This document shows, one piece after another, positions 12,697 through 45,743 of a stretch of DNA of 64,000 nucleotides. This DNA comes from a virus. The notes below the pieces were generated by a model. The model was not told where the DNA came from. It saw only the letters and a program-made list of their open reading frames with translations, and did not search any database. Numbering within the stretch: the first letter of the stretch is position 1; each line of letters opens with the position of its first letter. The stretch covers positions 1-64,000 of the IMG/VR virus record IMGVR_UViG_3300045995_000532. The stretch is one strand, 5' to 3'. The position numbers and the translations under genes were made by a program.

Positions 12697-12881
12697 AGGT
12701 ACGAGTGACCTGGAACGAGACGATCGAGAAGACCGCGACGGTCGACGTTCCTGACCTGAGCCTGTTCGAGGACGATCCTGACAGCGTGCTCGATTCGATC
12801 CTCGACGACTGCACCGACTCCGAGGAGGAGGAGTACGCAGTCCTCGATCGCAGCGTCATCCAGTTTCTGGTGGCCCCGTGA
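12693..12881 (+). CDS. Hypothetical acidic protein, 62 aa
   Basis: The AGAGAGGAAACC ribosome site lies within the end of the previous gene. A short strand (KVRVTWNETIEKTATVDV) is followed by a very acidic helix (FEDDPDSVLDSILDDC). It overlaps the methyltransferase gene by GTGA. Function is unknown. Confidence 0.55.
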   Translation: MKVRVTWNETIEKTATVDVPDLSLFEDDPDSVLDSILDDCTDSEEEEYAVLDRSVIQFLVAP

Positions 12882-13888
12882 CCATTCCGCCTCTCACCTA
12901 CGTGTCCACGTTCACGGGAATAGGCGGGTTCGAGCGAGGTCTCAACGCCAACAACTGGCGCAACCTGATGATGGTCGAGATCGACGCCCAGTGCCAGAAG
13001 ATCCTCGCCCGCCACTTCCCCAACGTCCCGCTGAGAGGAGACATCCATGACGTCCTCGGAACGGACTTCACCAGCCCCACGCTCATCTGCGGAGGCTTCC
13101 CTTGCACCGACACCTCCATCGCCGCCCCTCATCGTCTCGGGCTCGCTGGCGCTCGATCCGGCCTCTTCCACCAGTTCACCCGACTCCTCGGAGAGCACCT
13201 CCGACTCGTTGATTCTTCCCAACCCCGATGGGTGGTCATCGAGAATCCCGAAGGGCTTCTCACCTCTCCCCGCAAGACCGGACACGACATGTCCGCCGTC
13301 GTCGGTGGTCTGGAAGACCTCGGGTATGGGTGGGCCTACCGGGTCGTGGACGGGCGATACCTCGGCACAACCCAACGACGGCGTCGAGTCATCGTGGTCG
13401 GACATGCTGGAGGTGACCCCCGACCCGCATGGGCCGTTCTGGGTGACTACCGCGCAGGCAGTCAAGTTGCTGCCCCGGATCGCCTCGGCCGGCTCGCGCC
13501 GGGACCCCGCCCTGTACCAGATCCTGCTGGACCAAGCGGGGCAGTGATCTGGCGCAAGTCGGCCAGAGCTCGCGCGTCCCTCGACAAGGGCGGTTACGAG
13601 ACGTGGGTGCCGTCAGAGTTCGGCAACACCCTCACCGGCTATGACGGCGGCGGTCCGCTCCGTCAGACCCACCTGATCGCCCAGCACGGTCGCCTGCGGA
13701 CACTCACGCTCACTGAGTGGGCCAGGTTGCAGGGATTCCCTGACGATTGGCTCGACGGGATGCCTCCGTCGGCCCAGTACACCGCTCTCGGCAACGCCAT
13801 CCACACTGGCACGTCCTCTTGGTTCGCACGCAACCTGACCGCCGTGCACAACGCCGTCCCCTACCTACCAGACCTTGCATCCGCCTGA
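12878..13888 (+). CDS. C5-cytosine DNA methyltransferase
   Basis: Canonical C5 methylase motifs appear in order over 336 aa: motif I FTGIGGFERG (12-21, S-adenosylmethionine binding), motif IV GGFPC with catalytic Cys76, motif VI ENPE (Glu122), motif VIII QRRRRVIVVG, and motifs IX-X (LTEWARLQGFP, GNAIHTGT). It would methylate cytosine C5 within a short DNA site set by the region near residues 190-260. No restriction endonuclease is adjacent, so an orphan protective methylase is likely. A second gene is nested in its +1 frame (13047-13547), which may explain the biased Pro/Arg composition of residues 180-225. Confidence 0.9.
   Translation: MTIPPLTYVSTFTGIGGFERGLNANNWRNLMMVEIDAQCQKILARHFPNVPLRGDIHDVLGTDFTSPTLICGGFPCTDTSIAAPHRLGLAGARSGLFHQFTRLLGEHLRLVDSSQPRWVVIENPEGLLTSPRKTGHDMSAVVGGLEDLGYGWAYRVVDGRYLGTTQRRRRVIVVGHAGGDPRPAWAVLGDYRAGSQVAAPDRLGRLAPGPRPVPDPAGPSGAVIWRKSARARASLDKGGYETWVPSEFGNTLTGYDGGGPLRQTHLIAQHGRLRTLTLTEWARLQGFPDDWLDGMPPSAQYTALGNAIHTGTSSWFARNLTAVHNAVPYLPDLASA
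13047..13547 (+). CDS. Overlapping gene nested in the methyltransferase
   Basis: This ATG is preceded by TGAGAGGAGACATCC, the same ribosome site and spacing used by clear genes here. The frame stays open for 166 aa. The first 75 residues are Ser/Thr/Pro-rich. The remainder looks like folded protein (TSGMGGPTGSWTGDTSAQPN; then FWVTTAQAVKLLPRIASAGS), and resembles the short S-P-K-A-x-x-G-I-L-R-R-A-type helical segment seen beside many phage C5 methylases. It would be translated independently within the methylase mRNA. Homology is recalled from family patterns, not searched. Confidence 0.55.
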   Translation: MTSSERTSPAPRSSAEASLAPTPPSPPLIVSGSLALDPASSTSSPDSSESTSDSLILPNPDGWSSRIPKGFSPLPARPDTTCPPSSVVWKTSGMGGPTGSWTGDTSAQPNDGVESSWSDMLEVTPDPHGPFWVTTAQAVKLLPRIASAGSRRDPALYQILLDQAGQ

Positions 13889-16067: not shown

Positions 16068-16262
16068 ATGCCCGAGTTCAAGATCGTCTACCGGCGCTTT
16101 CCGCAGATCGTCCAGTGGACGGTCTGCCACGCCGACCCGGCCGAGCCCTGGACTCCGCGCTGCACAAACGGTGCAGAGAGCAACATGCGGAAGGCGAGGA
16201 AGGCCGCCGAGCACGCGCTCCGCATGGCCAATCGAACACCCATTGAGAAGGAGGATGAATGA
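16068..16262 (+). CDS. Hypothetical protein, 64 aa
   Basis: The ATG follows the previous stop by one base. N-terminal strands (FKIVYRRFPQIVQWTVCH) and a basic C-terminal helix. It overlaps the sliding-clamp ATG (ATGA), so it is co-expressed with the clamp gene. Confidence 0.55.
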   Translation: MPEFKIVYRRFPQIVQWTVCHADPAEPWTPRCTNGAESNMRKARKAAEHALRMANRTPIEKEDE

Positions 16263-17425
16263 CCGCAACCACCGAAGAGAAGGTTGTCACCAGCCTGGCC
16301 GCTGCCGTCGGCAAGGAGGAGTTCGAGGCGGCGCTGACGTTCGTCAAGCAGTCCGTTCCGAACCGTCCGCCGGTGCCCGTCCTCGCGTGCGTGGAGCTGG
16401 TCGCTGCGGGTGACACGTTGCGCATCAGCACCTTCGACTACGAGCTGAGCGCCGTCACCACCATTGAGGCCCGCAACGCTGCGGAGGGCACCGTTCTGGT
16501 GGGCCACGACATCCTCCTGAAGGCGGTGAAGTCGCTGGCCAAGCGGTCCACGGTGACCCTCACCCAGGTGGGGTCGAAACTGGTGGTGACCGACGGGCGC
16601 CGCTCGTTCACGCTGCTCATCCCGTGGGGGGAGAACTGCCCGACGCTGCCGGCCATGCCCGAGATCATCGGGTCCATCGACGGAGCCTCGCTCACCCAGG
16701 CGCTGGCCCAGGTCGTGATCGCGGCGAGCCGGGACGACACCTTGCCGTTGCTGACCACCGTTCGGATGGAGTTCGAGGGGGACAAGATCACCCTCCTCGC
16801 CACCGACCGCTACCGTCTGGTCGTGCGCGAGCTCACCTGGCACCCCGCCGCGCCGGACATCTCTGCTGTCGCACTGGTCAGGGCACGGACCCTCACTGGC
16901 TTCGTCAAGTCCCTGAAGGGTTCCGCCCAGATCAACATCGCCCTCGCGACGGGCACCCACGTCGATCGGATCGGCTTCGAGGCCGGGGGCAGGCGCAAGA
17001 CCTCGCTGCTGGTGGACGGGGACTACCCCGCCGTCCGGCGACTGTTCCCGGACGAGACGCCGATCCATGCCGTGGTGGCCACCCGCGAACTGTCCGACGC
17101 CGTCAAGAGCGTCGCCCTCTGCGCGGAGCGCAACACACCGGTCCGGCTGTCGTTCACTGCCGGTTGGGTGATGTTGGACGCCGGTCAGGGTGACGACGCG
17201 CAGGCATCCGAGACGCTCGACGCGACCCTGGTGGGCGACGACATCTCTGTCGCCTTCAACCCCCAGTTCCTGCTGGACGGTCTCGGCGTGCTCGGCACGC
17301 CGTTCGTGCGGCTGTCGTTCACACACCCGAACAAGCCCGTCGAGTTCACGGCGCAGACCACCCTCGACGGCGATGACGTCAAGGACTACCGGTACCTGCT
17401 CGTTCCCATCCGGTTCGCGTCCTGA
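16259..17425 (+). CDS. dnaN: DNA polymerase III beta-type sliding clamp
   Basis: The 388-aa length and threefold repeat fit bacterial beta clamps. Recognisable blocks are LACVELVAAGDTLRISTFDY in domain 1, LLTTVRMEFEGDKITLLATD RYRLVVRE in domain 2 (the classic A-T-D-x-Y-R-L core), and VAFNPQFLLDGL plus the C-terminal YRYLLVPIRF in domain 3. The clamp would encircle DNA as a dimer and tether polymerase, ligase and repair proteins. A phage-encoded bacterial-type clamp is uncommon; it may displace or replace the host DnaN. AGAAGGAGG is its ribosome site. It appears intact. Confidence 0.9.
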   Translation: MTATTEEKVVTSLAAAVGKEEFEAALTFVKQSVPNRPPVPVLACVELVAAGDTLRISTFDYELSAVTTIEARNAAEGTVLVGHDILLKAVKSLAKRSTVTLTQVGSKLVVTDGRRSFTLLIPWGENCPTLPAMPEIIGSIDGASLTQALAQVVIAASRDDTLPLLTTVRMEFEGDKITLLATDRYRLVVRELTWHPAAPDISAVALVRARTLTGFVKSLKGSAQINIALATGTHVDRIGFEAGGRRKTSLLVDGDYPAVRRLFPDETPIHAVVATRELSDAVKSVALCAERNTPVRLSFTAGWVMLDAGQGDDAQASETLDATLVGDDISVAFNPQFLLDGLGVLGTPFVRLSFTHPNKPVEFTAQTTLDGDDVKDYRYLLVPIRFAS

Positions 17426-17905: not shown

Positions 17906-17930
17906 AAGGCCCCGCAGAGTGCGGGGCCTT
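17906..17930 (+). terminator. Rho-independent terminator
   Basis: AAGGCCCCGC (17906-17915) and GCGGGGCCTT (17921-17930) pair over 10 bp around AGAGT and run into TTTCTC. It separates the clamp operon from the Ku-like gene. Confidence 0.85.
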
Positions 17931-17949: not shown

Positions 17950-18864
17950 ATGAACGCAATTGCGAAGGGTGTTTCCCTGAACTTGGGGGGTCTGCTCATC
18001 TCGTCCGTGACGGTGAACTCCGCGCTCGAGCCGAAGGTGGCGTCCGGGAACGTCCGGGTGTGCGACGCCGGCCACCCGCCCACCCAGGTGCGGGCACCGA
18101 ACGTGTGCAGCGAGTGCGCCCGGATCCACGACTCGTTCGGTGAGGTGCCCTTCCAGCAACTCAAGATCGCGCGGCCAATCGACGGCGGTCTGGTGGTGCT
18201 GGAGAAGGACGAGCTGGCGGAGGCGAAGGTGGACGCCGAGGCGTTCAAGAAGGACGCGCAGGTGACTGCGCACCCAGCCGAGCAGGTCACCATGCTTACC
18301 AGCACCGGCGACAAGATGTACTTCCTCTCGCCGGACGTCGACGCCAAGACCAAGCGGCCGAGCACCGCAAACGCGAACGCCTACTCGGCGCTCCAGTCCC
18401 TCGTGGCCAACCACCCGGAACTCGCGTTCATGACCAGGTGGACTCCGAGAACCGCGATGGCGCAGTTCCAGTTGGTCGCGTACGAGGGCGTGCTGGTCCT
18501 CCAGGAGCGCGTGGAGGGTTCCAACATCCGGGTGGCCCCTGTCCTGGACCTCGAGTCGTCGGAGGCGATCAACGGGGTGGCTGAGCAGATCCTCCTGATG
18601 CCGGGCCTGCCGAGCTCGGTCACGGACTACGACCCGGTGAAGTACCGGGACACGTCGGAGGAGCGCATCGCGGAACTCATCGCGAGCAAGGATGTCGTGC
18701 CCACAGGTTCGCTAGCCTCGGTCACCTCGATCAAGGCAGGCTCGGACGACCTCCTCACCCGACTCACCGCGCAACTCGCCGCGGCCACCGCCGGGCAGCC
18801 GAAGGTGGCTGCGAAGCGGGCGCCGGCGAAGAAGAAGGCGACCGCCCTTCAGAAGGTGTCGTAA
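17950..18864 (+). CDS. ku: Ku-like DNA end-binding protein
   Basis: The 304-aa product follows the layout of bacterial and phage Ku: an N-terminal strand block (KGVSLNLGGLLISSVTVNSA), a CxxC-type element (CSECARIHDSF near residue 57), and a GLVVLEKDELAEAKVDAEAF segment equivalent to the Y-V-x-L-x-x-E-E-L block. These are followed by MYFLSPD, then AYSALQSL..LAFMTRW and the LVLQERVEGS ring region, and a Lys/Ala/Pro-rich C-terminal tail. Ku homodimers thread onto DNA ends and recruit ligase for non-homologous end joining; mycobacteriophages Omega and Corndog carry Ku. An ATP-dependent ligase lies 4.8 kb downstream. It has its own ribosome site after a terminator. Confidence 0.72.
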   Translation: MNAIAKGVSLNLGGLLISSVTVNSALEPKVASGNVRVCDAGHPPTQVRAPNVCSECARIHDSFGEVPFQQLKIARPIDGGLVVLEKDELAEAKVDAEAFKKDAQVTAHPAEQVTMLTSTGDKMYFLSPDVDAKTKRPSTANANAYSALQSLVANHPELAFMTRWTPRTAMAQFQLVAYEGVLVLQERVEGSNIRVAPVLDLESSEAINGVAEQILLMPGLPSSVTDYDPVKYRDTSEERIAELIASKDVVPTGSLASVTSIKAGSDDLLTRLTAQLAAATAGQPKVAAKRAPAKKKATALQKVS

Positions 18865-18887
18865 CCCCAACCGGGAAAGGCAAGCGC

Positions 18888-19043
18888 ATGGGCATGACAG
18901 ATGAAGACGCGGTCCTCCACGCCGCGGTAGCCGCTACTCTTGACGGAGCAAAGAATATTCTCGCGGATCTTCGTTGGAGTGCGGATCGGTTGGTGACTAA
19001 CTGCTTCGACGAACGAGGTCTGGTTGAAACAGATCACTCGTGA
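18888..19043 (+). CDS. 51-aa helical protein
   Basis: GGGAAAGG lies upstream of this ATG, with an alternative ATG two codons later. It is an acidic single long helix (DAVLHAAVAATLDGAKNILA). Codon third positions are more AT-rich than in its neighbours, as they are in the next gene. It overlaps the next gene by 20 bases. Confidence 0.5.
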   Translation: MGMTDEDAVLHAAVAATLDGAKNILADLRWSADRLVTNCFDERGLVETDHS

Positions 19044-19167
19044 AGAATGTGTCGCCAGCTTCAAGGCTGACGGTCTTGACCCGTCTGGTGCTTACAGCTA
19101 CATTACAGAATGCTGTGATGAAAATGATCCATGCAAGAAGCACAAAGAGATGGATGTGAACCGATAG
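19024..19167 (+). CDS. 47-aa Cys-rich protein, TTG start
   Basis: GAGGT lies before the TTG. Four Cys (ECV, ECCDENDPC) and an HKEM segment near the C-terminus suggest a small metal site. Codon use is clearly more AT-rich than the surroundings, hinting at separate acquisition. Its stop abuts the next ATG. Confidence 0.45.
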   Translation: MKQITREECVASFKADGLDPSGAYSYITECCDENDPCKKHKEMDVNR

Positions 19168-19566
19168 ATGAAGGTCGTCCAGGTCACCCTCGTGAGCGGT
19201 GAGGTTGTCCGCGGGGATACCGCCAAAGTCACCGAGGAGGGGACGTTTGTGATCCGGAGCGGCGGCTCGCACGTCGTCCAGATCGTCGACCCGATCGAGA
19301 CGATCGAGGAGATCGACGTGCCGGACGACGACGCGCGACGAGCAAGGATTGCGGCACGGGAGCGCGCGGCAGAAGAGATGGACGCTGCGGCCGAGCATCA
19401 CTGCCGTCGCTGCCACCGCGGCGTCGAGCACATCCCTGGTGTCGGGTGGGTCGACGTCGTCTCCGGTGACGACGGTGGGACGTACGACATCTGCCCGGAG
19501 GCGGGGAGGTTGAGTAATGGCGAGGAAGACTGGGAGCAGCAGCACGAGGTTGCTCACCCCCGCTGA
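19168..19566 (+). CDS. Hypothetical protein, 132 aa, CxxC
   Basis: The ATG directly follows the previous stop. Beta-rich N-terminus (KVVQVTLVSGEVVRGDTAKV) like a small barrel, an acidic helix, then HHCRRCHRGVEHIPGVGWVD, a zinc-knuckle-like element. No family is recognised. Confidence 0.6.
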   Translation: MKVVQVTLVSGEVVRGDTAKVTEEGTFVIRSGGSHVVQIVDPIETIEEIDVPDDDARRARIAARERAAEEMDAAAEHHCRRCHRGVEHIPGVGWVDVVSGDDGGTYDICPEAGRLSNGEEDWEQQHEVAHPR

Positions 19567-19747
19567 GTACGCGGCGACGTACCACCTCTGGCAGACGCGC
19601 AAGACCCGTCGGCGTGAGGTTGAAGACCTGCTCGAGCCGTCCATGATTCACGTGTTGGCTGAGCGGGTTCGCCAGGAAGCGGAGCGCAGGTACTGCGACT
19701 CCGAGACAACGATCGACGGTCATCGGAGAGGAGACGGGCATGGATGA
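19517..19747 (+). CDS. Hypothetical basic protein, 76 aa
   Basis: GGGGAGG precedes the ATG. Central helix-turn-helix-like stretch (LTPAEYAATYHLWQTRKTRR) and a helical end. The 50-base overlap with the preceding gene is longer than usual here, so one of the two ends may differ from the annotation. Confidence 0.5.
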   Translation: MARKTGSSSTRLLTPAEYAATYHLWQTRKTRRREVEDLLEPSMIHVLAERVRQEAERRYCDSETTIDGHRRGDGHG

Positions 19748-20153
19748 GGGTGGCGTGAAGACGATCGACATGGATCGCATCGTGGAGCTCGTCGTCGCAC
19801 ACGGCGTGACCGCGTTCGTTGACCAGACCGGCGGTGGGACGGCCACCATCTACGCAGGGCTGACCCACGCCGATGCCGCCGGTGATCTTCGCTACGCCGC
19901 GTGCGCTGGTCCGGGCGAGTACGGCTGGGGCGCCCGGCCGTCCACCGCCATCGTGGAGGAGTTCTACGTCGGACTGGACGACGACGGAGAGTCCGACGCG
20001 GTCGACGTCAATGACGTCGGTGCCCACGACGAGGCGGCCATCGCGGACCTGATCATCCACCAGGCCATCCGCCTGAGCGACACACCGGTGCCCCTCTCGT
20101 TCGACGAGATCGAGCAGCTCGGGTTCGACGCGACAGGGCGGTCGTCACGGTGA
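19740..20153 (+). CDS. Hypothetical protein, 137 aa
   Basis: AGAGGAGACGGGC precedes the ATG. N-terminal helix-strand (DMDRIVELVVAHGVTAFVDQ), a Gly-rich region (TGGGTATIYAGLTH, CAGPGEYGWG) and an acidic C-terminus. No family is recognised; the gene appears intact. Confidence 0.6.
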   Translation: MDEGGVKTIDMDRIVELVVAHGVTAFVDQTGGGTATIYAGLTHADAAGDLRYAACAGPGEYGWGARPSTAIVEEFYVGLDDDGESDAVDVNDVGAHDEAAIADLIIHQAIRLSDTPVPLSFDEIEQLGFDATGRSSR

Positions 20154-20398
20154 TCGCCCCTGAGATCGCTGGACCTCGCGAATGCTGGTGGTGCACCTGC
20201 GGATGCACGGTCATGGTCGGCAGCACGAACATGCGCGGTGTCATCCACGCGGATTTGATCCCGCCCCTCTGCCCGCTCTGCCGAGTCAGCGGCCGCACCG
20301 CGGTCATGCGACCCGGGCGCGTCGCCGTGCAGAGTGTCGTACAGTCGGATACAGTTGTCTCCAACAGCAGTTCATCGAAGAAAGGAACACCACGGTGA
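20150..20398 (+). CDS. Hypothetical zinc-binding protein, 82 aa
   Basis: Coupled GTG start. CWWCTCGC (residues 12-19) and CPLC (residues 41-44) form two close Cys pairs typical of a zinc ribbon. The C-terminal 20 residues are Ser/Lys-rich and disordered. Nucleic-acid or adaptor function is possible. Confidence 0.55.
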   Translation: MIAPEIAGPRECWWCTCGCTVMVGSTNMRGVIHADLIPPLCPLCRVSGRTAVMRPGRVAVQSVVQSDTVVSNSSSSKKGTPR

Positions 20399-21276
20399 CC
20401 GACAGCCGGCATGGCCAGACCGACATCCTCGACGTCCCCGCCGAGTATTACGGGGACTTCTACGACGACTACGATCACGACGCAATCAGGGCCGAGCACC
20501 TGGTTCTGATCCAGAAGATGCTCCCCGCCGGCGTCACCCTCCTCGGCAACGGTGAGGTCATCGTCGACCTCAACGTGGTCACCGAGCCGATCTCGATCGA
20601 CTGGCGAGAGATCGGCGAGCTGACGACCGACGAGTTCACCGAGATCGTCAAGCGGCACGACCTCTGGGCCGCCCTCGCCGTCGCCCTGAAGGCGTCGTAC
20701 GCGGAGCAGTTCGACGTCGGCGACGACCGCCCGGTCGCCCGGTTCACCTGCGGATTCCAGGTCATCGACTGGGGCAATGGGGCCTGTGGACCGGTCGAGG
20801 ACCCGGCAGTCGCGACGCTGGACGGCGAGCACACGGTCAGCATCGTTCTCGACGGCCGCGAGTTCGCCCCGGGGGACGTCTGGGATCTGGTCGACGAGGC
20901 GTCCGCCAAGCTCGCGGACTACGGCGTCACGCTCGACTCCAACGGGTGCGGGAGCGACGACCAGCTCCCGACAGAAGTCAGTTCCGGCGAGATTGTTGCC
21001 GGTCAGGCGGCGTCGGTTGCGTACCCCTGGATCGTCGTCGCCGCGACCGTCACCACCGTCCCCGACAACCTGGTTCACGACGAGCTGGGCGGCACCCGCG
21101 GCGTCATCAACCGTGGCACCGCCGAGATCGACGTCGTACGCCTGCCGTACAGCGAGGACAAGGCCGAGTGGGAGCGGCTCGCGGACGCTGCGCTTGCCGA
21201 GTCCGGCTGGGCCCGCACCGGCGCGTGGGTCGAGGACGGCGACTCACTCAGCGCTCAGGTGGAGCAGACCCTGTGA
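20395..21276 (+). CDS. Hypothetical protein, 293 aa
   Basis: GAAAGGA precedes the GTG start. The product is acidic throughout, with a helical N-terminus (AEYYGDFYDDYDHDAIRAEH) and mixed alpha-beta body. A C-terminal half resembles a strand-rich domain (VSIVLDGREFAPGDVWDLVD). No catalytic motif is visible and no family is recognised. It lies at the head of a four-gene coupled run that includes the ParB-like protein. Confidence 0.6.
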   Translation: MTDSRHGQTDILDVPAEYYGDFYDDYDHDAIRAEHLVLIQKMLPAGVTLLGNGEVIVDLNVVTEPISIDWREIGELTTDEFTEIVKRHDLWAALAVALKASYAEQFDVGDDRPVARFTCGFQVIDWGNGACGPVEDPAVATLDGEHTVSIVLDGREFAPGDVWDLVDEASAKLADYGVTLDSNGCGSDDQLPTEVSSGEIVAGQAASVAYPWIVVAATVTTVPDNLVHDELGGTRGVINRGTAEIDVVRLPYSEDKAEWERLADAALAESGWARTGAWVEDGDSLSAQVEQTL

Positions 21277-21707
21277 TCACCGTCGACTACGAAGGCGAGT
21301 ACGGCAACCTCGACCACATCACGCGCAACCAGACCGGTCACGTCCCCACCGCCGCCATCGCCAGCCTACTCGGAGTCAGGGGCGAGCAGCCCGGTCAGCA
21401 CCGCAACCGGCAAGGTGGCGAACGCTGGGAGGACTTCAAGCGGGACGTCGTCAAGTCCGGCTTCCGGCCCATCTTCATCACCGTCGACTTCCGTCAACAG
21501 CCGCGCATCAGCGAAGGCAACCACCGGCGCGACGCCGCTGTCGAACTGGGCATGACAGAGGTGCCGGTGGAGGTCCGCTACTTCGGTCACGCCGAGCGCC
21601 TGTTGTCCCTCAGTGACGAAGGTGAATGGGTTCCGTTGCCGTTCGCGCAGAACGGCCAGCCGTGGGACATCCCGCCAATCGAACGAGAAGAAGGAATCCA
21701 CCTGTGA
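21273..21707 (+). CDS. ParB-like nuclease-fold protein, 144 aa
   Basis: Residues 85-110 (RISEGNHRRDAAVELGMTEV) match the ParB/Srx-fold signature of the form I-x-E-G-N-H-R-x-x-A-A-x-x-L-G, followed by the PVEVRYF strand. Stand-alone domains of this type in phages act as nucleases, methylase-linked proteins or CTP-binding switches. There is no helix-turn-helix, so it is not a complete partition ParB. GTG start coupled to the preceding gene. Confidence 0.65.
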   Translation: MITVDYEGEYGNLDHITRNQTGHVPTAAIASLLGVRGEQPGQHRNRQGGERWEDFKRDVVKSGFRPIFITVDFRQQPRISEGNHRRDAAVELGMTEVPVEVRYFGHAERLLSLSDEGEWVPLPFAQNGQPWDIPPIEREEGIHL

Positions 21708-22330
21708 CCACCACTCTGAAAACCGTCCGTGCCGCCCTCACCGACCTCGGAGAGGAGCGCGAGGACATCACCGCCGTCGCCTACGACGACACCGAACAGC
21801 CCGGCTGGTCGGGGAACGAGTCGGAGGCGCGGATCTTCCTGACCCGACGCACGAGGGACACCTGCATCGAGTGCGGTCAACCCCTCCCTGCCGGCCGGCC
21901 CGGACCTGTCACCTGGTTCAGCCAGGGCCAGGGCCAGGGAACCCACAACCACGAGCACGGGTGTGGGGTCTGGAACCTGCCCGAGGAGGTCCAGCTGCTG
22001 GTCGAGCACGACGACCTGTACAAGCTGGACGACCTGCTCGCCGGCCTGGTCGACCGTCTCGACACCAAGGTGACGACGCAGCAGAGGGAGAGCGACGCGA
22101 CCGGCGTTCGCGTCGACCTCATCAAGGAACTGCGCACGTTCCTCCGATCCCACGAGGGTGACGACGAGGAAGACATCCTCCCGACCGGCTCAGACGTCGA
22201 GCCGGGTGTCTACCGCGAGGGCGGGCGGTGGGTCGCGTGGAACTTCGACCCCCGCGACGAGACCGAGACGATCACCGTCACCGAGGACGACCTCCCCCAG
22301 AAGAAGACCATGCAGATCGAACAGGACTGA
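21704..22330 (+). CDS. Hypothetical protein, 208 aa, CxxC
   Basis: Coupled GTG start. Contains CIECGQPLPAG (residues 53-63) and a nearby HNHEHGCG cluster (residues 80-87) that could complete a zinc site. A helical linker and an acidic strand-rich C-terminus follow. No family is recognised. Confidence 0.6.
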   Translation: MTTTLKTVRAALTDLGEEREDITAVAYDDTEQPGWSGNESEARIFLTRRTRDTCIECGQPLPAGRPGPVTWFSQGQGQGTHNHEHGCGVWNLPEEVQLLVEHDDLYKLDDLLAGLVDRLDTKVTTQQRESDATGVRVDLIKELRTFLRSHEGDDEEDILPTGSDVEPGVYREGGRWVAWNFDPRDETETITVTEDDLPQKKTMQIEQD

Positions 22331-22338
22331 GGAACATC

Positions 22339-22809
22339 GTGGCTGAGGACAACCGGTTGCAGTTTCGTGTCGACCCGGACATGAAGGCGTGGCTCGCGGA
22401 CCGTACGTCCCGGACCATGAACTTCGGTTCCCCTGACCTTCGAGCGTTGGCCGAGCTGAGGATGTGGCGCGGACACCTGGCCCTGGAGCTCCGTCAGCAG
22501 CGCTGGACGCTGGCTGAGATCGGGTGCATCGCGGACATCCTCAACGGGACGATCTTCAACGACGTGATCGGCACCGCGGCACTGTTCGCCGAGATCGCGG
22601 ACGCCGTCGACCTCGACCCTGACATCTGGGGCAAGAAGTGGGAGATCGACGAGAAGGAACTGGTCTCCAAGGTTGGCCGACTTGGCCCGACAGCAGCTCA
22701 CGCATTGACCGACGCCGTCTCTCGATGGTGGGCGACCCAGTCGGATCACACCATTGAGGGCTGGGAGCGGGTCGGGGTCCGGATCGCAGCAGAGAGGGGA
22801 GAGTCATGA
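22339..22809 (+). CDS. Hypothetical helical protein, 156 aa
   Basis: The GTG follows the previous stop by 8 bases. The N-terminal segment (LQFRVDPDMKAWLADRTSRT) resembles a ribbon-helix-helix start, and the body is helical (LALELRQQRWTLAEIGCIAD). A regulatory DNA-binding role is possible but unproven. Confidence 0.6.
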   Translation: MAEDNRLQFRVDPDMKAWLADRTSRTMNFGSPDLRALAELRMWRGHLALELRQQRWTLAEIGCIADILNGTIFNDVIGTAALFAEIADAVDLDPDIWGKKWEIDEKELVSKVGRLGPTAAHALTDAVSRWWATQSDHTIEGWERVGVRIAAERGES

Positions 22810-23069
22810 GCACCACGACGGCGAAGTACACCGGCACCGAGAATGGTGTCTGGTCCAGCGCGGCGGGTGGCTTCATCATGGATGGCATCTACACCGCGAC
22901 CGGCGCTGACGAGGAGGTCAAGCGACTGATCGTCGCAGGTGAGGACCCGGGCGACCTCGAGGTCGTGCCCTTCTGCTCCGAGCACCGCGACGCCGAGCAG
23001 CCCGAGGATGGCTGTGAACTGTGCGACGAGGACGAGGACGAAGACGAAGACGACGAGGAGACGTCGTGA
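22806..23069 (+). CDS. Hypothetical acidic protein, 87 aa
   Basis: GAGAGGGGAG precedes the ATG. A small N-terminal domain ends in CSEHRDAEQPEDGCELC (residues 59-75), a probable zinc knuckle, and then a run of Asp/Glu to the C-terminus. Function is unknown. Confidence 0.6.
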   Translation: MSTTTAKYTGTENGVWSSAAGGFIMDGIYTATGADEEVKRLIVAGEDPGDLEVVPFCSEHRDAEQPEDGCELCDEDEDEDEDDEETS

Positions 23070-23260
23070 GCACGCGCCCAAAGGTGAGCGACGTCGTCAC
23101 CTACCGCGCGTTCGGTGAGGTGGTGCGCCAGATCACAGTCACGGGCGTCTACGACAACATCCAGAACGGTCAACCAGGTTTCTACGGAGTGGACGCCGAC
23201 GGCGAGGAACGTTGGGGATACGACAGGCAAATCGTCCGCAACGACGGACCCCCGTCGTGA
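23066..23260 (+). CDS. Hypothetical protein, 64 aa
   Basis: Coupled GTG. A beta-strand pattern (SDVVTYRAFGEVVRQITVTG, GFYGVDADGEERWGY) resembles the small protein at 7044-7238. No family is recognised. Confidence 0.55.
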   Translation: MSTRPKVSDVVTYRAFGEVVRQITVTGVYDNIQNGQPGFYGVDADGEERWGYDRQIVRNDGPPS

Positions 23261-23364
23261 GCCGATTCCGCGACCACCGCCCGCGGCTTGACGCGACCGT
23301 GTGCCGCACGACCCTGCCGGGTGTGAGCGCCTCTACCACTCGACTCGACACTGGAGCCGGGTGA
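23257..23364 (+). CDS. Possible 35-aa peptide
   Basis: A GTG coupled to the preceding stop opens a short Arg/Thr-rich frame. Support is only the GTGA overlap. The following 70 bases hold overlapping short frames, including a CCECC-containing one without a start codon. This may be a decayed gene. Confidence 0.25.
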   Translation: MSRFRDHRPRLDATVCRTTLPGVSASTTRLDTGAG

Positions 23365-23401
23365 CTGCTGCGAGTGCTGCGGTGGTGACGTCTCCGAAAG
23401 A

Positions 23402-23417
23402 TTAGTGCCCGCTATAC
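23402..23417 (+). promoter_or_regulatory. Putative promoter/operator 16-mer, copy 1
   Basis: TTAGTGCCCGCTATAC lies 20 bases upstream of the gene at 23438. The same 16-mer occurs on the minus strand at 31612-31627, upstream of the methyltransferase gene starting at 31565. CTATAC resembles a -10 box. A shared regulator or promoter is inferred. Confidence 0.4.
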
Positions 23418-23437
23418 GACGACCAACGAGAGGCAAG

Positions 23438-23596
23438 ATGATGACGCTCACGGAACTTCGCCAGATGCTCGACACGATTGAAGCTCCGCACGGGGCAGGG
23501 GTGCTAGTGCTGTGCGGGGGCGACACATTCGACCTCACCTCGGTGACCCCCGAGGTGGACGCAGATGGCGGCACGGTATGGCTCGTGACCAACTGA
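23438..23596 (+). CDS. Hypothetical protein, 52 aa
   Basis: CGAGAGGCAAG precedes tandem ATG codons. Helix (LTELRQMLDTIEAP) followed by strands (GVLVLCGGDTFDLTSV, TVWLVTN). No family is recognised. It lies between the 16-mer motif and the ligase gene. Confidence 0.55.
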   Translation: MMTLTELRQMLDTIEAPHGAGVLVLCGGDTFDLTSVTPEVDADGGTVWLVTN

Positions 23597-23641
23597 CCAA
23601 CACCGTTTAGCGCCTGCTAACGACTATCAGAGAGGAGAACG

Positions 23642-24544
23642 ATGGAGCTGATGATCGAACCGATGCTGGCAGTGCCCAGCAGCGGGGCCAGCAACCGCCG
23701 GCCGATCCGGCTGGATGAACTGGCTGCCCGAGGTGATTGGGTGGCCTCCGAGAAGATTGACGGCATACGCGGCATCCTCTACTCGGACGGCCGCGTTTCT
23801 CGTCTCTTCAACCGGAAGGGTCGAGAGATCACGGAGCGGTTCCCTGAGGTCGCACGGTTGCGACTCCCGGAGGTGGTCCTCGATGGTGAGATCGTCGCGA
23901 AAGATCGCATGTTCCAGACCGTGGCGACCCGGGACAAGCAGACGACAGGGTTCGAGCACGCAGCACGAGCGAACCCTTGCATGCTCATCGCGTTCGACAT
24001 CCTGTCCAAGGGCGGCCAGTTGCTGACGAGTCTCCCACTGCACCAGCGCACCCAGCTGATGCGTGAGGTTGTTGGCCGGCGTCGCAACCTTCGACCCGTC
24101 AAGCAGTCGACGGACCTCATGAGGCTCTGGCGTCAGATCGCGGCCGCGGGCGGTGAGGGCGTGATCGCGAAGCAGCGGTCGTCCCTCTACCTCCCCGGTG
24201 AGCGCTCCGGGTCGTGGGTCAAGTTCAAGACCCTCCAGCGCATCACTGCGATCGCCGGCAGTTACAACGTCGGCGAGAACCGAGAGTTCGGCGCGATGAA
24301 CCTGTCCTTGCTCGACGGCATCAAGGAGGTAAAGATCGGCCGGGTTGGCACCGGCTGGACTGTGGCCCAGCAGAAGGACCTGAAGGCCCGGATGGATGCC
24401 GGCGAGATCCTACTGGTGGAGATCGAGGCCCTCAACCGGACCCCCGACAATGCACTACGGTTCCCTGTATTCCTGCACGAAAGGACTGATCTCGACTTTT
24501 CGGCGGCCACCGCCGACCAACTCAAGTTACTTCCCGTCTACTGA
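23642..24544 (+). CDS. ATP-dependent DNA ligase
   Basis: Nucleotidyltransferase motifs are all present in 300 aa: motif I EKIDGIR with adenylated Lys38, motif III-like VVLDGEI (Glu83), motif IIIa LIAFDIL (114-120), motif IV EGVIAK (172-177), motif V SWVKFK (191-196), then an OB-fold C-terminus. It seals DNA nicks through a ligase-AMP intermediate. It is most like the minimal LigD/phage-type ligases, with no extra nuclease or polymerase domain. GAGAGGAG precedes the ATG. Near a Ku-like gene it could form a compact end-joining pair; ordinary lagging-strand sealing is the alternative. Confidence 0.92.
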   Translation: MELMIEPMLAVPSSGASNRRPIRLDELAARGDWVASEKIDGIRGILYSDGRVSRLFNRKGREITERFPEVARLRLPEVVLDGEIVAKDRMFQTVATRDKQTTGFEHAARANPCMLIAFDILSKGGQLLTSLPLHQRTQLMREVVGRRRNLRPVKQSTDLMRLWRQIAAAGGEGVIAKQRSSLYLPGERSGSWVKFKTLQRITAIAGSYNVGENREFGAMNLSLLDGIKEVKIGRVGTGWTVAQQKDLKARMDAGEILLVEIEALNRTPDNALRFPVFLHERTDLDFSAATADQLKLLPVY

Positions 24545-25768: not shown

Positions 25769-26809
25769 ATGCCCATGCCGAGGGAGGTACTCGCTCGCAG
25801 GATCCAAGCGATGCCCGGCGCCAAAACCGGTGACCGGCTCTTCGAGGGCACCACATACCCGCGCAACTGGGATGAGTACGTTGGCCAGAAGTTGGCCGTG
25901 GAGCACATCAAGGGCTCGTGCGTGGCAGCGAAGATCCGCGGCGAGCGACTCGGCCACGTGCTGATCGCAAGTGGTGCACACGGGATCGGCAAGACCGCAG
26001 TCGCGAAGCTGATCGCCCAAGAGATGGGCGTCGGGCTGCTCGAGGTCCAGGGTGCGATGAACCTCCGTGAGGGGCTGCGCGTCTTCGCGTCCATGGCTGA
26101 CGGTGACATCCTGTTCTGGGACGAGATCCACCTAGCCGTGGTCGGCGGCAAAAGCAGGGCGGAGTGGCTCCTGCCGGTGATGACGGAGGGGCACATCGTG
26201 ACCCCCACGGGCGCTGTGATGATCCCTGACGTCACGATCATCGGCGCCACGACGGACGCTCAGAAGCTCCCGCAGACGATGCTGTCCCGCTTCCTGATCA
26301 ACCCGGTGCTCGTCCCGTACACCGACGCGCAGGCACAGGCGATCGCGAAGGTGTCCGCCGGCAAGATCTTCACCCACCCGTCGCTGGATCTGCCGAATGA
26401 CTGGGTGCTGCGAGTCATTGCGAGGGCCGCCAACAACAACCCGCGCGCGATCGCCAAGCTGCTCAGCACGCTGCGTGACTCCGCCCTGGCGGGCTTGTGC
26501 TTGCGGACACCCAACGGTGGGTACTCGCTGGACACGATGTTCCGGTGGGCCGGCGTCACTGCTGACGGGCTCGACACCCTCGCCCAGGACTACCTGATCG
26601 TGCTGTCCACCCAGCTGAACGGCAAGGCCGGCAAGGACGCCATCGCGTCAGCACTGGGGGAGCCGACTCTGCCCCGGTACACCGAGCAGCTGCTCAAGGA
26701 CAAGGGGTTCCTGACGGGCACCTCCAGCGGTCAGGAACTCACTGGTGAGGGTGCTGCTCGCGCCCTCCAACTCACGCTCGCCAGGATCGCGCAGGAAGAG
26801 GAGAAATGA
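25769..26809 (+). CDS. ruvB: RuvB-like Holliday-junction AAA+ ATPase
   Basis: The order and spacing of motifs match RuvB: PRNWDEYVGQ at the N-terminus, Walker A GAHGIGKTA (69-77), Walker B ILFWDEIH (114-121), sensor 1 GATTD (160-164), arginine-finger-like SRF (Arg174) and a winged-helix C-terminus. RuvB hexamers drive branch migration of Holliday junctions. The 346-aa length is normal. No RuvA is seen, so loading may use a host or unrelated partner. A RuvC-like resolvase is encoded on the other strand at 39834-40388. Phage RuvB is uncommon. Confidence 0.85.
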   Translation: MPMPREVLARRIQAMPGAKTGDRLFEGTTYPRNWDEYVGQKLAVEHIKGSCVAAKIRGERLGHVLIASGAHGIGKTAVAKLIAQEMGVGLLEVQGAMNLREGLRVFASMADGDILFWDEIHLAVVGGKSRAEWLLPVMTEGHIVTPTGAVMIPDVTIIGATTDAQKLPQTMLSRFLINPVLVPYTDAQAQAIAKVSAGKIFTHPSLDLPNDWVLRVIARAANNNPRAIAKLLSTLRDSALAGLCLRTPNGGYSLDTMFRWAGVTADGLDTLAQDYLIVLSTQLNGKAGKDAIASALGEPTLPRYTEQLLKDKGFLTGTSSGQELTGEGAARALQLTLARIAQEEEK

Positions 26810-27180: not shown

Positions 27181-28200
27181 ATGAGTGAACTCGGCAAGTA
27201 TCTTGAAACCACCGGCAAGTTGCCGGCGGATACCGTCCTGGGTGACCTCACCATCACCACCGTCACAGAGGGGGCATACGTGAGAGAGGATGTCGTGGGA
27301 CTGTTCGAGGATCTGGACCTGGACCCATCGTTCATCCCGCCGACGTCGACCGCCATCGACGCGTTCAACAAGGCGACTCGCCGCAAAGATCTGCAGTACG
27401 AGATGCCGAACGGTTCGATCGGATTCATCCAGGTAGACCAGGTCACCTCACCAAACCCGGCTGAGATGGTCGGGCGAATGCTGACCCGCCGGGAAATGGT
27501 TCGGTCCAAGTCGATCCTCGACTTCTCGAAGGTGGGCGAGATCCACTTGTACCGCGGCCCCCGCCGAAGCGGACCCACCAGGCGGGTCGACGACACAGGC
27601 GCCCGGCTCCTGATCTCACTGGCAAGCAACGACCCAGAACTCAAGATCAGCCCGGCAGAGAAGCACACGATCACACAGTTCGCGTACGGGATCCAGCAGG
27701 ACTACGAACGCTACTTCTCCACCCTGGATGGCAACGCGATGCGCAAGCTCTTCCGCTGCTACCAGCGGCGCCGGCTCGCGGCGACGAAGATCAAGGACTC
27801 GTTGTACTTCATTCCCGTGCAGTTCTCGGGTGAACTCGCCCGGCTCAAGGAGGCTGCTGACAACATCTCTGGATGTACGTTGGACCTAGTGCCGCTGGTC
27901 GATATGGTTGCCCAGAGGGATCACGTCATCAGGACCTTCCAAGCAGAGACGGAGGAGACGATGCGCGCTCTGGTCGTCGAACTTCAGGAGGCTCGATCGA
28001 AGGGGCGCGTCTCCGTGACCATCCTCAGCCGGCTCCGTCAGCAGTTCGACGACCTGATGGGCCGCGTAGACACCTACACCGACGCACTCGGTGAGGCATC
28101 GATCCGACCAAGCAGCACAGCCGACGTGGTCAAAGCTGCATTGGCAGCATTGTCGAGTGACTTCATCAACACCAACAGAAAGGATCACGAATGGCTATGA
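27181..28200 (+). CDS. Hypothetical protein, 339 aa
   Basis: The ATG at 27181 follows a spaced AAAGGGA. N-terminal domain with YVREDVVGLFEDLDLDPSFI and FNKATRR, a basic middle (KYLYRG-like HLYRGPRRSGPTRR), and a long C-terminal coiled coil (residues 215-310). The layout resembles phage proteins of about 300 aa with an unknown N-terminal domain and coiled-coil tail that occur next to DNA-processing genes. No enzymatic motif is seen. It overlaps the next gene by 10 bases. Confidence 0.6.
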   Translation: MSELGKYLETTGKLPADTVLGDLTITTVTEGAYVREDVVGLFEDLDLDPSFIPPTSTAIDAFNKATRRKDLQYEMPNGSIGFIQVDQVTSPNPAEMVGRMLTRREMVRSKSILDFSKVGEIHLYRGPRRSGPTRRVDDTGARLLISLASNDPELKISPAEKHTITQFAYGIQQDYERYFSTLDGNAMRKLFRCYQRRRLAATKIKDSLYFIPVQFSGELARLKEAADNISGCTLDLVPLVDMVAQRDHVIRTFQAETEETMRALVVELQEARSKGRVSVTILSRLRQQFDDLMGRVDTYTDALGEASIRPSSTADVVKAALAALSSDFINTNRKDHEWL

Positions 28201-30878: not shown

Positions 30879-31565
30879 TCAGGCCACGTCGACGACGTCG
30901 AGCAGCCCTTGGTCGAGTCGCTTGGCGATGGCCTCGCAGTAGCTCTCGTCGATCTCGACGCCGAGCCAGGTGTTGCCCGTGGCGAGGGCAGCTACCGCCG
31001 ACGCGCCCGACCCGGCAAAGGGGTCGACCACGAGGCCGGTGGGGATGCGTCGGAGAATGTGCTCCCAGAGCGCCGGGGGCTTCTCGTAGGGGTGCACCCG
31101 CTTCGACGGCGGGTTGACCGTGATGACGTTCGGGATCGCAGCCCGGTCGACCACGTCCGGCTGGCCGTTGGAGGCGATGAGGATGGGGTCCCATGCGGTG
31201 CGGAACATGCCGCCCGTGCCCACCGTCGTGCGTGTCCACGCCACGCAGGTCGTCAGGCGCAGCCCTGTGAGGGTCACGAGGTAGGAGACGTCGGGGACCC
31301 AGCGCCAGTCGCTCAACAGGGCGGCGATCCCGCCGGGGCGCAGCACGCGGCGGGCGTGCGCGGCACTCTCAGACAGGAGTCGCATCGGTGCGCCCGACGT
31401 CCCCGCTGCTCCGTCGTCGCGTCCACGGATCGCGTTGGGGACCATCGAGTATGGCGGGTCAAGGATGAACGCCGACGCCGACCCGGCGGCGAGCGTCGGC
31501 AGAACGTCGAGAGCGTCACCCAGGTAGAGGGTCACCTTGTCGTTGGAGTAGTACGGCGTCGTCAT
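30879..31565 (-). CDS. DNA methyltransferase, DPPY class (N6-adenine/N4-cytosine)
   Basis: The motif order is beta-class: catalytic DPPY (36-39) first, a small target-recognition region, HPYEKPPALW, then the S-adenosylmethionine-binding FAGSG near residue 190, all in 228 aa. DPPY favours N6-adenine. No restriction gene is adjacent. The clean ATG overlaps no neighbour, and a putative promoter 16-mer lies 47 bases upstream. It is one of four DNA methyltransferases in the window. Confidence 0.9.
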   Translation of the reverse strand: MTTPYYSNDKVTLYLGDALDVLPTLAAGSASAFILDPPYSMVPNAIRGRDDGAAGTSGAPMRLLSESAAHARRVLRPGGIAALLSDWRWVPDVSYLVTLTGLRLTTCVAWTRTTVGTGGMFRTAWDPILIASNGQPDVVDRAAIPNVITVNPPSKRVHPYEKPPALWEHILRRIPTGLVVDPFAGSGASAVAALATGNTWLGVEIDESYCEAIAKRLDQGLLDVVDVA

Positions 31566-33843: not shown

Positions 33844-34364
33844 GCGTCTCCGCTCCCCTGCTTGATCCCCTGCTTGACGGCCACGCGCAACGCCGCGATT
33901 ACGCCGGCCGTGCGCGTCACCCTCGACGCCTCTCCCCCAACCTTCACGATCATCTCGTCGAGCACGGCCAGCTCCGGCGCACGGAACCGAAGCGTCAACG
34001 GAGCGACGTTCCCGGCCACTGCCTTCCGGCCTCGTGGTGCCCGCGCGCCGATCTGCAACGCGTGCGTCAGCTCAGCCACGGCCTCGTCCTGGTAGTCCTC
34101 GCATGTCCACGCCACTACCTGGGCATAGGACGGCTGAGCCTCGACGCCGAAGATCATCCTCCGCAGCTCGTCGTACAGCGGCTGCGGGATCCGGACCGCG
34201 ACGATCGTCAGCCCATCGACGGCCACCACGGGCCGCCCGCCACGGCCCCGCGACGGACGCTGCGGCGGCGCCTTCTTCTTGAACACCAGGTTGGTCGGCG
34301 GCGGGAGGAGGTCGTCAGTCTCGTCCTCCAGTCGCGACGGAACGAACGCTGGGCGACGATTCAC
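33840..34364 (-). CDS. Probable partition partner of ParA, 174 aa
   Basis: The GTG start overlaps the ParA stop, the usual coupling of parA to its centromere-binding partner. The N-terminal 50 residues are basic and disordered (KKKAPPQRPSRGRGGRP). Residues 55-90 (VAVRIPQPLYDELRRMIFGV) resemble a ribbon-helix-helix strand and helix, and a second such element (LTLRFRAPELAVLDEMIVKV) follows at 130-165. This tandem RHH-like layout fits type Ib-like partition proteins. The assignment rests on position and pattern. Confidence 0.6.
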   Translation of the reverse strand: MNRRPAFVPSRLEDETDDLLPPPTNLVFKKKAPPQRPSRGRGGRPVVAVDGLTIVAVRIPQPLYDELRRMIFGVEAQPSYAQVVAWTCEDYQDEAVAELTHALQIGARAPRGRKAVAGNVAPLTLRFRAPELAVLDEMIVKVGGEASRVTRTAGVIAALRVAVKQGIKQGSGDA

Positions 34365-35296
34365 AGCGACACCTTCTCTCCACGTCCCTCGTAGACGGCC
34401 AACCGTGCCAGAACCTCTCTCGTCAAGTCCTGGTAGTCGTTCGCGAGACCAGACGGGTCCCGGGTCCAGAGCTGCTGCTCCTGCTTCTCCCCTGCCGCCA
34501 GGCGCTTGAGCCGGCCCTTCTTCTGCAAGTCCGATTCAACCACCAGCTCGTTGGGCATCATGTGCTGCTGGCGCAGATCGATCGACGAAGCCTTGTCGGT
34601 CCGCACGATGCTGCGGAACGCCGTCACTCCGGATCCTTCGAGCAGAATGGAGAGGTTCTCCAGAGCCTTCCCGTTTCGGCGCGTCGCCCGCGGGTTCACG
34701 TTGAACAGGACGATCCCCAGCAGATCGATGCGTGCGCCACGCTTCCGTGCACGCAGCCAGCGGCCCGCCAGCAACTCGACGCCGTCGAACGATGCCTCGT
34801 CGTCGCAGCACGGCACGATCAGGTATCGCGACACCTCCAGGAGCACGTCGAGCAGCGGCGCATCCCCCGGGCCGGAGTCGATCAGCACCAGGGCGTAACC
34901 CTCGCGGTCGCACAAGTCGCCAAGGGTCGTAGCGAAGTTCTCGGCGATGTTGATGCCTGTCTGGCCGGCGGTCGCGACCATGGATGCCATCGCGGCCAGT
35001 AGCGGGCCGCCGGGTACGACGTCGAGACCAGGACGCACATCACGAACTGGATCGAGCGCCTCGCCATACTGCAGGGCCATTGCGAGCGACTTGCCCTTGT
35101 CCCCCGGTACGCCGAGGTCGTTGCGCGACACGTTCCCCTGCTGGTCCGCGTCGATCACCAGGACTCGACGCCCGGGTCTGCAGGTCATGCCCGCCAGGGC
35201 GGCCACGATCGAGCTCTTGCCCACGCCGCCCTTCTGGTTCGCGAGAAGGATGACACGCGCAAGCGAGCCCTCCGCCTGCTTCGCTGTACGGCTCAT
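34361..35296 (-). CDS. parA: ParA-type partition ATPase
   Basis: A deviant Walker A motif QKGGVGKS (21-28, with the signature Lys23), Walker A' DADQQGN (50-56), and LVLIDSGPG as Walker B identify a ParA/Soj ATPase of 311 aa. Such proteins bind DNA non-specifically with ATP and move plasmid copies apart. The ATG at 35296 is chosen (GGTGGG upstream); the frame extends 59 codons further with Arg-rich shadow. Together with the RHH-like partner and the primase/initiator upstream, it indicates plasmid-style maintenance. An alternative role is chromosome-like phage DNA positioning. Confidence 0.9.
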   Translation of the reverse strand: MSRTAKQAEGSLARVILLANQKGGVGKSSIVAALAGMTCRPGRRVLVIDADQQGNVSRNDLGVPGDKGKSLAMALQYGEALDPVRDVRPGLDVVPGGPLLAAMASMVATAGQTGINIAENFATTLGDLCDREGYALVLIDSGPGDAPLLDVLLEVSRYLIVPCCDDEASFDGVELLAGRWLRARKRGARIDLLGIVLFNVNPRATRRNGKALENLSILLEGSGVTAFRSIVRTDKASSIDLRQQHMMPNELVVESDLQKKGRLKRLAAGEKQEQQLWTRDPSGLANDYQDLTREVLARLAVYEGRGEKVSL

Positions 35297-35609
35297 CGAT
35301 TGACCCACCATCTCTCGTAACGATCTGCGCGGCTGGCCTCTCACTCTATTGCGTCGAACGTTGGTCGATGTAGCGACACGCCGTAGCAGCGCTGCCCGCT
35401 CCGCCATCGCGTACGCCATACATCCGCCCCGCTTCCGCGTACTACACCCACCAAGACTGCCCGGTTGCGGCACGCCATAGACGGGGCAACTCTCGCGCTG
35501 TCTATCGCTCTTCCCGCCTGACTGCGGCGCGCACCCTGTGCCGTCCTGTTCTCTATCGTGTTGTGGTCGATAGTGTGGTCTATATAGCGGTTAGTACACC
35601 GGGAATCCA
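35297..35609. promoter_or_regulatory. 313-bp intergenic region: candidate partition site and promoter
   Basis: No gene is evident. It contains CTATCG/CGATAG (35553-35558 with 35568-35573), another CTATCG at 35501-35506, and CTATATAGCGG at 35580-35590, reminiscent of the 16-mer at 31612. Lying between the initiator and parA, repeats here are good candidates for parS or an autoregulatory operator. ATTGCGTCGAACGTTGG near 35346 adds a partly palindromic GAACGTT. Confidence 0.5.
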
Positions 35610-42398: not shown

Positions 42399-42604
42399 AG
42401 GACTTCCTCGATCTCTAGGTGGCCGTGCTCGGTACGGGATATGTCCCACTCACCCATGAGGGGCGCCTCACTGGGTCCGGTGATGAAGTCGACGTTGCCG
42501 GGCATGATCTCCCATGCCATGTCCTCTGCCTCCTCGACATCTGCGGCATTAACCTCCAGCACTGCGGAGATCGTATTCTGGACGTAAATCTGGTACCGCG
42601 GCAT
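42395..42604 (-). CDS. Hypothetical protein, 69 aa
   Basis: The ATG at 42604 follows GGAGGGATC and overlaps the methyltransferase stop. Strand-helix-strand plan (YQIYVQNTISAVLEVNAADV). No family is recognised. Confidence 0.55.
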   Translation of the reverse strand: MPRYQIYVQNTISAVLEVNAADVEEAEDMAWEIMPGNVDFITGPSEAPLMGEWDISRTEHGHLEIEEVL

Positions 42605-44246: not shown

Positions 44247-44458
44247 CAGAAGACGCCGTCTTCGACTACAGGGACCCAGCCAGCAGGCTGAATCAAGATC
44301 CCGCGCACGGCGAGCTGCTCAAGTTCATGGGCCGCCATGTCCATCGAGTCCTCATAGATCTCACCGCAGAAGCACTCGCCGTACTCCTCGGTGTCAGCGT
44401 AACCGTGGCTCCTGAGCACACTCCAGGCTGCAGCCCAAATCCGTTCAACGTCAGCCAT
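44246..44458 (-). CDS. Hypothetical protein, 70 aa
   Basis: The ATG at 44458 overlaps the methyltransferase stop (TGATG). Helical, with ECFCGEIYEDSMDMAAHELE, a CxC plus acidic/His cluster that may bind metal. Function is unknown. Confidence 0.55.
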   Translation of the reverse strand: MADVERIWAAAWSVLRSHGYADTEEYGECFCGEIYEDSMDMAAHELEQLAVRGILIQPAGWVPVVEDGVF

Positions 44459-45405: not shown

Positions 45406-45743
45406 CCGAGCTCCTTGGCGAACGGTGGCTGCTCGCCGACGGCCGCGATGTACCCGTCGTAGGCGACATCGAAGGCCTCGCTCGTCCACGGCTCCGGCAG
45501 GGTCCCCAGCGCCACCTGGAGGCCCCGCTGCCAGCGTGCATACCGGCGGTGTTCGGGACTGAAGATGTAGCGGCACAACCACCAGGGGGCCACCACGACG
45601 CACACAGCCCGGTACAGCGGGTCGCCGTCGTCGTCGGTGCGTGATGTCCACGGCCACGGGATGACGACGGTGTGACGGAACCACTCATCGGAGCCGAGCG
45701 AAGGCCACCTGGCGCACCACTGCGAGTAGAACCAGATGATCAT
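45402..45743 (-). CDS. Hypothetical Trp-rich protein, 113 aa
   Basis: MIIWFYSQWCARWPSLGSDE and VVIPWPW are unusually Trp-rich, and a hydrophobic segment (YRAVCVVVAPWWLCRYIF) could be membrane-associated. It lies between the primase-helicase and a methylase with overlaps on both sides. Function is unknown. Confidence 0.55.
   Translation of the reverse strand: MIIWFYSQWCARWPSLGSDEWFRHTVVIPWPWTSRTDDDGDPLYRAVCVVVAPWWLCRYIFSPEHRRYARWQRGLQVALGTLPEPWTSEAFDVAYDGYIAAVGEQPPFAKELG

Follow-up and report, generated by a model that had tools for sequence, protein, structure and literature searches.

Does a phage that encodes a Ku-like protein and, a few kilobases further on, an ATP-dependent DNA ligase carry its own means of joining DNA ends? 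The question is raised by an uncultivated phage known from the 102,678-bp IMG/VR virus record IMGVR_UViG_3300045995_000532, of which bases 1-64000 were analysed (the window; positions below are those of the window unless stated otherwise). An earlier note, made from the letters of this stretch alone, had described a Ku-like protein of 304 amino acids (aa) with a basic tail and a complete minimal ligase 4.8 kb downstream in the same block, and had suggested that the two function together. The genes concerned are arranged as follows.

17950..18864, plus strand: predicted Ku-family DNA-end-binding protein, 304 aa, with the core, a conserved minimal C-terminal region (DDLLTRLTAQL) and a basic tail
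18865..23641, plus strand: intervening open reading frames (ORFs), about ten, small and of no clear function; accessory, outside the pair
23642..24544, plus strand: predicted stand-alone minimal ATP-dependent DNA ligase, 300 aa, like the ligase domain of LigD (PF01068, 1.9e-28)

We consider it likely that Ku and ligase together give the phage a two-component unit for joining ends, of the type known from bacterial non-homologous end joining (NHEJ), which would serve circularisation or break repair. A Ku profile and a ligase profile were run separately against 2.9 million viral contigs, and both scans returned the same five close relatives. The six phages form one lineage, with shared structural genes at roughly 30-70%.

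Judged by sequence comparison, the product of 17950-18864 belongs to the Ku superfamily, with homology well beyond chance, and on this point the earlier description of the protein was correct. Its ATG directly follows a Shine-Dalgarno-like AAAGGAG (AGAGGAG precedes the ATG of the ligase), both ORFs have coding-type GC by codon position, and the tail is basic, the last 45 residues having 9 K/R and 2 D/E. Within its family, which is a divergent one, the window protein has the lowest scores. Taken alone it matches PHROG_4873 ('Ku-like DNA end binding') at 2.9e-8 over residues 20-304 and NCBIfam Ku_bact (TIGR02772) at 7e-7 with 29 bits, short of the curated cut-off of 150 bits, and it stays below the Pfam Ku cut-off (PF02735, E=0.0076, 16.6 bits against 25). 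All five relatives pass the Pfam cut-off (27.8-46.6 bits) and match TIGR02772 over nearly the whole of that model at 1e-20 to 1e-24 (best 2.4e-24; 68-81 bits, cut-off 150). On these scores the window protein is filed as a divergent Ku and not as a Ku_bact equivalog.

Matches outside the lineage are of the same kind. A four-member Ku profile found M. tuberculosis Ku in the PDB at 4.5e-14, in an alignment spanning the core into the C-terminal region, and a hidden Markov model (HMM) built from the window family matched Firecracker Ku at 3.2e-21. A TBLASTN search of isolate phages with the window Ku alone gave no match; the Ku of one relative, used as query, matched cluster O mycobacteriophage Ku, and that of another matched annotated plasmid Ku proteins at up to 4e-11. 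The conserved minimal C-terminus (DLL/DLM..L.A) is kept in all six family members and the basic tail in five, being missing in relative G003. In the phylogeny the window-family Ku proteins form a single clade with 100/100 support on a long stem.

Structure prediction combined with an HMM search, the check that the earlier note had proposed, also pointed to Ku, as did the sequence matches in the PDB. An AlphaFold run with four Ku sequences was unusable, with a predicted local distance difference test (pLDDT) score of 36, and was redone with 19 viral Ku sequences using AlphaFold2 (pLDDT 81; predicted template modelling score 0.68). The top Foldseek matches of this model in the PDB were all Ku proteins (B. 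subtilis, M. tuberculosis, human; best E 3.5e-10), and among viral models the Ku of phage Dylan was matched at 4.9e-13. The template modelling (TM) scores were modest at 0.36-0.48, so the relative placement of the domains in the model is not to be trusted. Ku homologues were part of the alignment behind the model, so model and sequence comparison do not count as separate lines of evidence. Within these limits a Ku fold is supported for the modelled protein, and by homology it is probably a homodimeric ring.

On profile and motif evidence the ligase of the second gene is minimal, complete and ATP-dependent, as had been proposed; it comes nearest to the ligase domain of LigD. It consists of a nucleotidyl-transferase domain (PF01068, 1.9e-28) and an OB domain (PF04679, 1.2e-6). 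All nucleotidyl-transferase motifs looked for are present, namely I (KIDGIR; K38xDGxR), III (LDGE), IV (EGVIAK) and V (WVKFK; W192xKFK), and all six family members have them. The best of all NCBI models is TIGR02779 (NHEJ_ligase_lig) with 148.5 bits, below its curated cut-off of 227.75, followed by LigD models with 129.7 and 120.4 bits; the best non-LigD family reaches 89 bits. In the window genome and three relatives (G000-G003) neither the LigD polymerase domain (PolDom; PF21686, LigD_Prim-Pol) nor the LigD phosphoesterase domain (PE; PF13298, LigD_N) was matched up to E=10. Because of the score below the LigD-ligase cut-off and the missing PolDom and PE, the protein is called LigD-ligase-like and not LigD. 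The window-family ligases likewise form a single clade (100/100 support) on a long stem.

The PolDom of LigD has a motif similar to that of archaeo-eukaryotic primases. Elsewhere in the window, a 619-aa protein (35610-37469, minus strand) carries DLD and SPTGGRHIYLPL motifs like those of such primases and could, from these motifs, be a primase-polymerase. It matched no Pfam family above cut-off and no counterpart was found in the three relatives searched, which is why it was left out of the pair.

What ties the two genes together is their linkage. In all six phages of the lineage Ku comes first and the ligase after it, both on one strand; the distance between them is 4.78 kb in the window, about 1.0, 1.0, 0.6 and 0.3 kb in four relatives and -1 bp in the fifth. 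In the last case (L010) the Ku stop and the ligase start share one base (TGATG), an overlap resembling that in translationally coupled operons. Identity of the four long relatives to the window phage is 47-53% for Ku and 52-61% for the ligase, and the genes at 18865-23641 had no match in the genomes of these four. The 'same block' of the earlier note thus holds for gene direction and less so for content, with about ten small ORFs not found in relatives lying between the pair. Its proposal of joint function gained from the linkage kept in all six phages despite the turnover in between and from the one-base overlap in L010; protein contact, end joining and substrate are what we infer. Besides the close relatives, 17 distant ligases came up in the ligase scan, and their loci gave no Ku with the Ku HMM.

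In the mechanism that we propose, Ku would load on double-strand DNA ends, protect and bridge them, and bring in or stimulate the phage's own LigD-type minimal ligase, which would then seal the Ku-held ends. The substrates would be the ends of the linear genome after injection, blunt or with short cohesive overhangs, whose joining would circularise it, or clean breaks, for example from host restriction. Lacking polymerase and nuclease domains, such a unit would be expected to work chiefly on ends that fit each other from the start. Homology, intact motifs and conserved linkage are observed; dimerisation, physical partnership, joining activity and biological substrate are inferred. In bacteria, the minimal Ku C-terminus suffices for LigD interaction in B. 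subtilis and P. aeruginosa and stimulates ligation in M. tuberculosis, and M. tuberculosis Ku and the Ku core directly bind the LigD ligase domain (PMC9638933). Streptomyces carries NHEJ ligases without a PolDom (PMC5124664). Together with the binding of the ligase domain by M. tuberculosis Ku, this gives recruitment without a PolDom a precedent.

Several points weigh against such a unit. No PolDom or PE domain accompanies the ligase, and in the window 4.8 kb separate it from Ku. Because the six phages share descent, their linkage records retention in one lineage and not repeated independent association, and the co-occurrence is not independent evidence of partnership; both could be core genes for separate reasons. 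Many phages have a lone ATP ligase without Ku. Two relatives assemble with end overlaps of 48 and 123 bp, which do not discriminate between cohesive-end (cos) and headful packaging.

The distribution of the two genes in other phages bears on how unusual the combination is. Among 50,697 phage records, all Ku matches but one were in Mycobacterium phages, and a second query gave the same result; the sole exception is a 5.5-kb fecal fragment. The window ligase had 49 matches in these records, none of them in Mycobacterium phages. When 22 Ku-bearing records were searched with PF01068, an ATP ligase was found in eight, the six of the window family and two unrelated contigs (G009 and G012). The tail-fibre-like and RNase H genes of G009 make it a probable phage; for G012 this is less sure. 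The five phages of clusters J and O in this search yielded no ATP ligase (PF01068). The known Ku of isolate phages (mycobacteriophage clusters J and O) thus comes without a ligase of the window type here, in agreement with the earlier statement that known phage Ku (Omega, Corndog) relies on host LigD. PMC11936186 lists a Ku in Streptomyces phage BillNye; here, neither Ku nor the ligase found a match in that phage. Outside the window family, Ku and a stand-alone ATP ligase lie close together in two unrelated viral contigs (L047:9995-12238 and L044:9992-14905).

Known systems resemble the pair in part. The Ku of cluster O (Corndog, Firecracker, Dylan) and cluster J (Omega, Thibault) phages, PHROG_4873, is likewise a stand-alone Ku in an actinophage replication/repair region, with full-length homology, but the window-family Ku is only about 26% identical to that of Firecracker, forms its own clade and has a LigD-type ligase nearby. 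The 4-nt cos genomes of Omega and Corndog are circularised by phage Ku (PMC3706429, PMC4351075), which works with host LigD (PMC7719229). Bacterial Ku with LigD (M. tuberculosis, B. subtilis; plasmid-borne in Caballeronia and Tsukamurella) shares the linked Ku and ATP-dependent NHEJ-type ligase and the minimal Ku C-terminus, whereas the window ligase lacks PolDom and PE, the genes are on a phage, and both proteins sit on long stems. The Streptomyces system of Ku with the stand-alone LigC/LigD ligases (PMC5124664) also places Ku beside ligases without a PolDom; there, however, the genes are chromosomal and scattered and PolDom genes are separate. The LigD-like ligases of Rhizobium, Sinorhizobium and SPbeta-group phages are phage stand-alone ATP ligases too, some annotated as NHEJ type, but no Ku was found in these phages in the same collection and their ligases are about 25-31% identical to that of the window. 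Phage Ku and phage LigD-like ligases are thus both known; no description of a phage with both was found in the literature searched, of which coverage was incomplete.

A wider claim, that this is an actinophage lineage with self-contained NHEJ, keeping Ku and its own ligase as a core pair independent of host Ku and LigD and thereby freed from NHEJ-positive hosts, is tentative, and we put it somewhat short of an even chance. What is known of NHEJ in viruses comes chiefly from mycobacteriophages, in which Ku is believed to rely on the LigD of the host. Retention of Ku alongside a LigD-type ligase would make a lineage a naturally occurring example of minimal end joining with neither polymerase nor nuclease. 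The pair makes testable whether Ku and ligase suffice, how a ligase is recruited without a PolDom and whether circularisation is the driver; as a compact tool of two genes, it could also bring end joining to laboratory bacteria that have no NHEJ.

Of the other explanations the strongest, a plausible one on the doubtful side, is that the pair repairs breaks from host defences (restriction, CRISPR) or from replication collapse and does not circularise the genome; its probability overlaps with that of the two-component unit as such. Such repair would need no different biochemistry, the phage further encodes a Sak4-like annealing protein, an exonuclease, RuvC and endonuclease VII, and its several DNA methyltransferases suggest restriction pressure. 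However, those recombination genes could already mend breaks when several genome copies are present, and circularisation of short-cos genomes is the only experimentally supported role of phage Ku in the cited literature.

It is unlikely that the two proteins act separately, Ku with host LigD as in Omega and Corndog and the ligase in sealing replication nicks like the T4 and T7 ligases. Lone ATP ligases are indeed common in phages (PMC7824862), mycobacteriophage Ku normally comes without a ligase, and a replicative ligase would fit a genome with its own primase-helicase and clamp. The ligase nevertheless scores 148.5 bits with LigD ligase models against at most 89 for any non-LigD family, and it lies near Ku in every member of the lineage, overlapping it in one. 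Still less probable is a Ku that mainly shields linear ends from host exonucleases, with joining secondary, in the manner of Mu Gam, which is related to Ku and has been described as a protector of phage ends (PMC1378119). The conserved linkage to a ligase argues against this reading, and so does a C-terminal region that the family has kept and that in bacterial Ku is linked to ligation (PMC9638933). That the 304-aa protein is no Ku and resembles one by chance would suit its 16.6 bits in Pfam and the modest TM scores, but is refuted at the sequence level by the relatives that pass the Pfam cut-off and by the matches to TIGR02772, M. tuberculosis Ku and Firecracker Ku.

GC content is 64%, and no end repeats were found in the 102,678-bp record. 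An IS21-like istA/istB element (L003:8400-10687; genome 91900-94187) is a possible host clue. Its nearest copies are on actinobacterial plasmids, and its top plasmid DNA matches are mostly actinobacterial (Kocuria 74.5%, Rhodococcus, Mycolicibacterium), which suggests an actinobacterial host. Two scans of genome collections found no prophage relatives. A ParA-like partition protein (34361-35473, minus strand; PHROG_164, 2.1e-35), without a match in relatives, makes a plasmid-like prophage state possible. The four DNA methyltransferase genes (12878-13888, 30879-31565, 42604-43656 and 44458-45684) are of cytosine-5 and N6/N4 type.

The large terminase gene (genome 82791-86702, L002/L003, minus strand, 1303 aa) has a long insert directly after the Walker A 'TGK'. 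The insert has no counterpart in relative G003 (terL of 542 aa) and resembles sequences inside phage helicases; it is probably an intein. The packaging type could be read as cos or headful neither from this protein, whose matches were mostly helicases and homing-endonuclease-type records, probably via the intein, nor from the intein-free terL of a relative, with one good match only (Caudovirales GX15bay).

Around the pair lie the following features.

16259..17425, plus strand: DNA polymerase III beta-clamp homologue just upstream of Ku (PF02767/PF02768/PF00712)
17908..17928, plus strand: perfect G+C-rich hairpin GGCCCCGC-AGAGT-GCGGGGCC followed by TTTCTC, read in the sequence directly upstream of the Ku start
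25769..26809, plus strand: RuvB-like AAA+ ATPase (RuvB_N 8.2e-19; PHROG clamp-loader 2.5e-17)
27181..28200, plus strand: DUF6744 protein in the same block (PF20529, 2.5e-13; 32-40% identity in G001-G004)

The clamp homologue had no match in relatives G001-G004. Cluster O Ku phages also have a clamp near Ku (Firecracker gp84), whereas the relatives of the window phage do not. The hairpin is a possible terminator of the preceding gene; it was not among the calls of the terminator scan, and the promoter/terminator scan performed at chance level. The RuvB-like ATPase follows the ligase in all four relatives covering the region (47-59% identity in G001-G004), and the gene for the DUF6744 protein comes next in the shared order. 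PADLOC gave no defence-system match for Ku or ligase and one weak match, for the RuvB-like ATPase (DolB, 1.8e-4).

A pair of MoxR AAA (bpMoxR) and VWA genes lies downstream of the ligase at L001:13365-15982 and in the same place in L005, L006 and L009. The MoxR gene follows the ligase in the relatives, the VWA gene in those four whose sequence extends that far, and no counterparts were found in the window phage. In L047 a different, MoxR/CobS-CobT-like pair stands directly upstream of Ku and ligase, and in L045 and L046, too, Ku has a MoxR-like gene in its neighbourhood.

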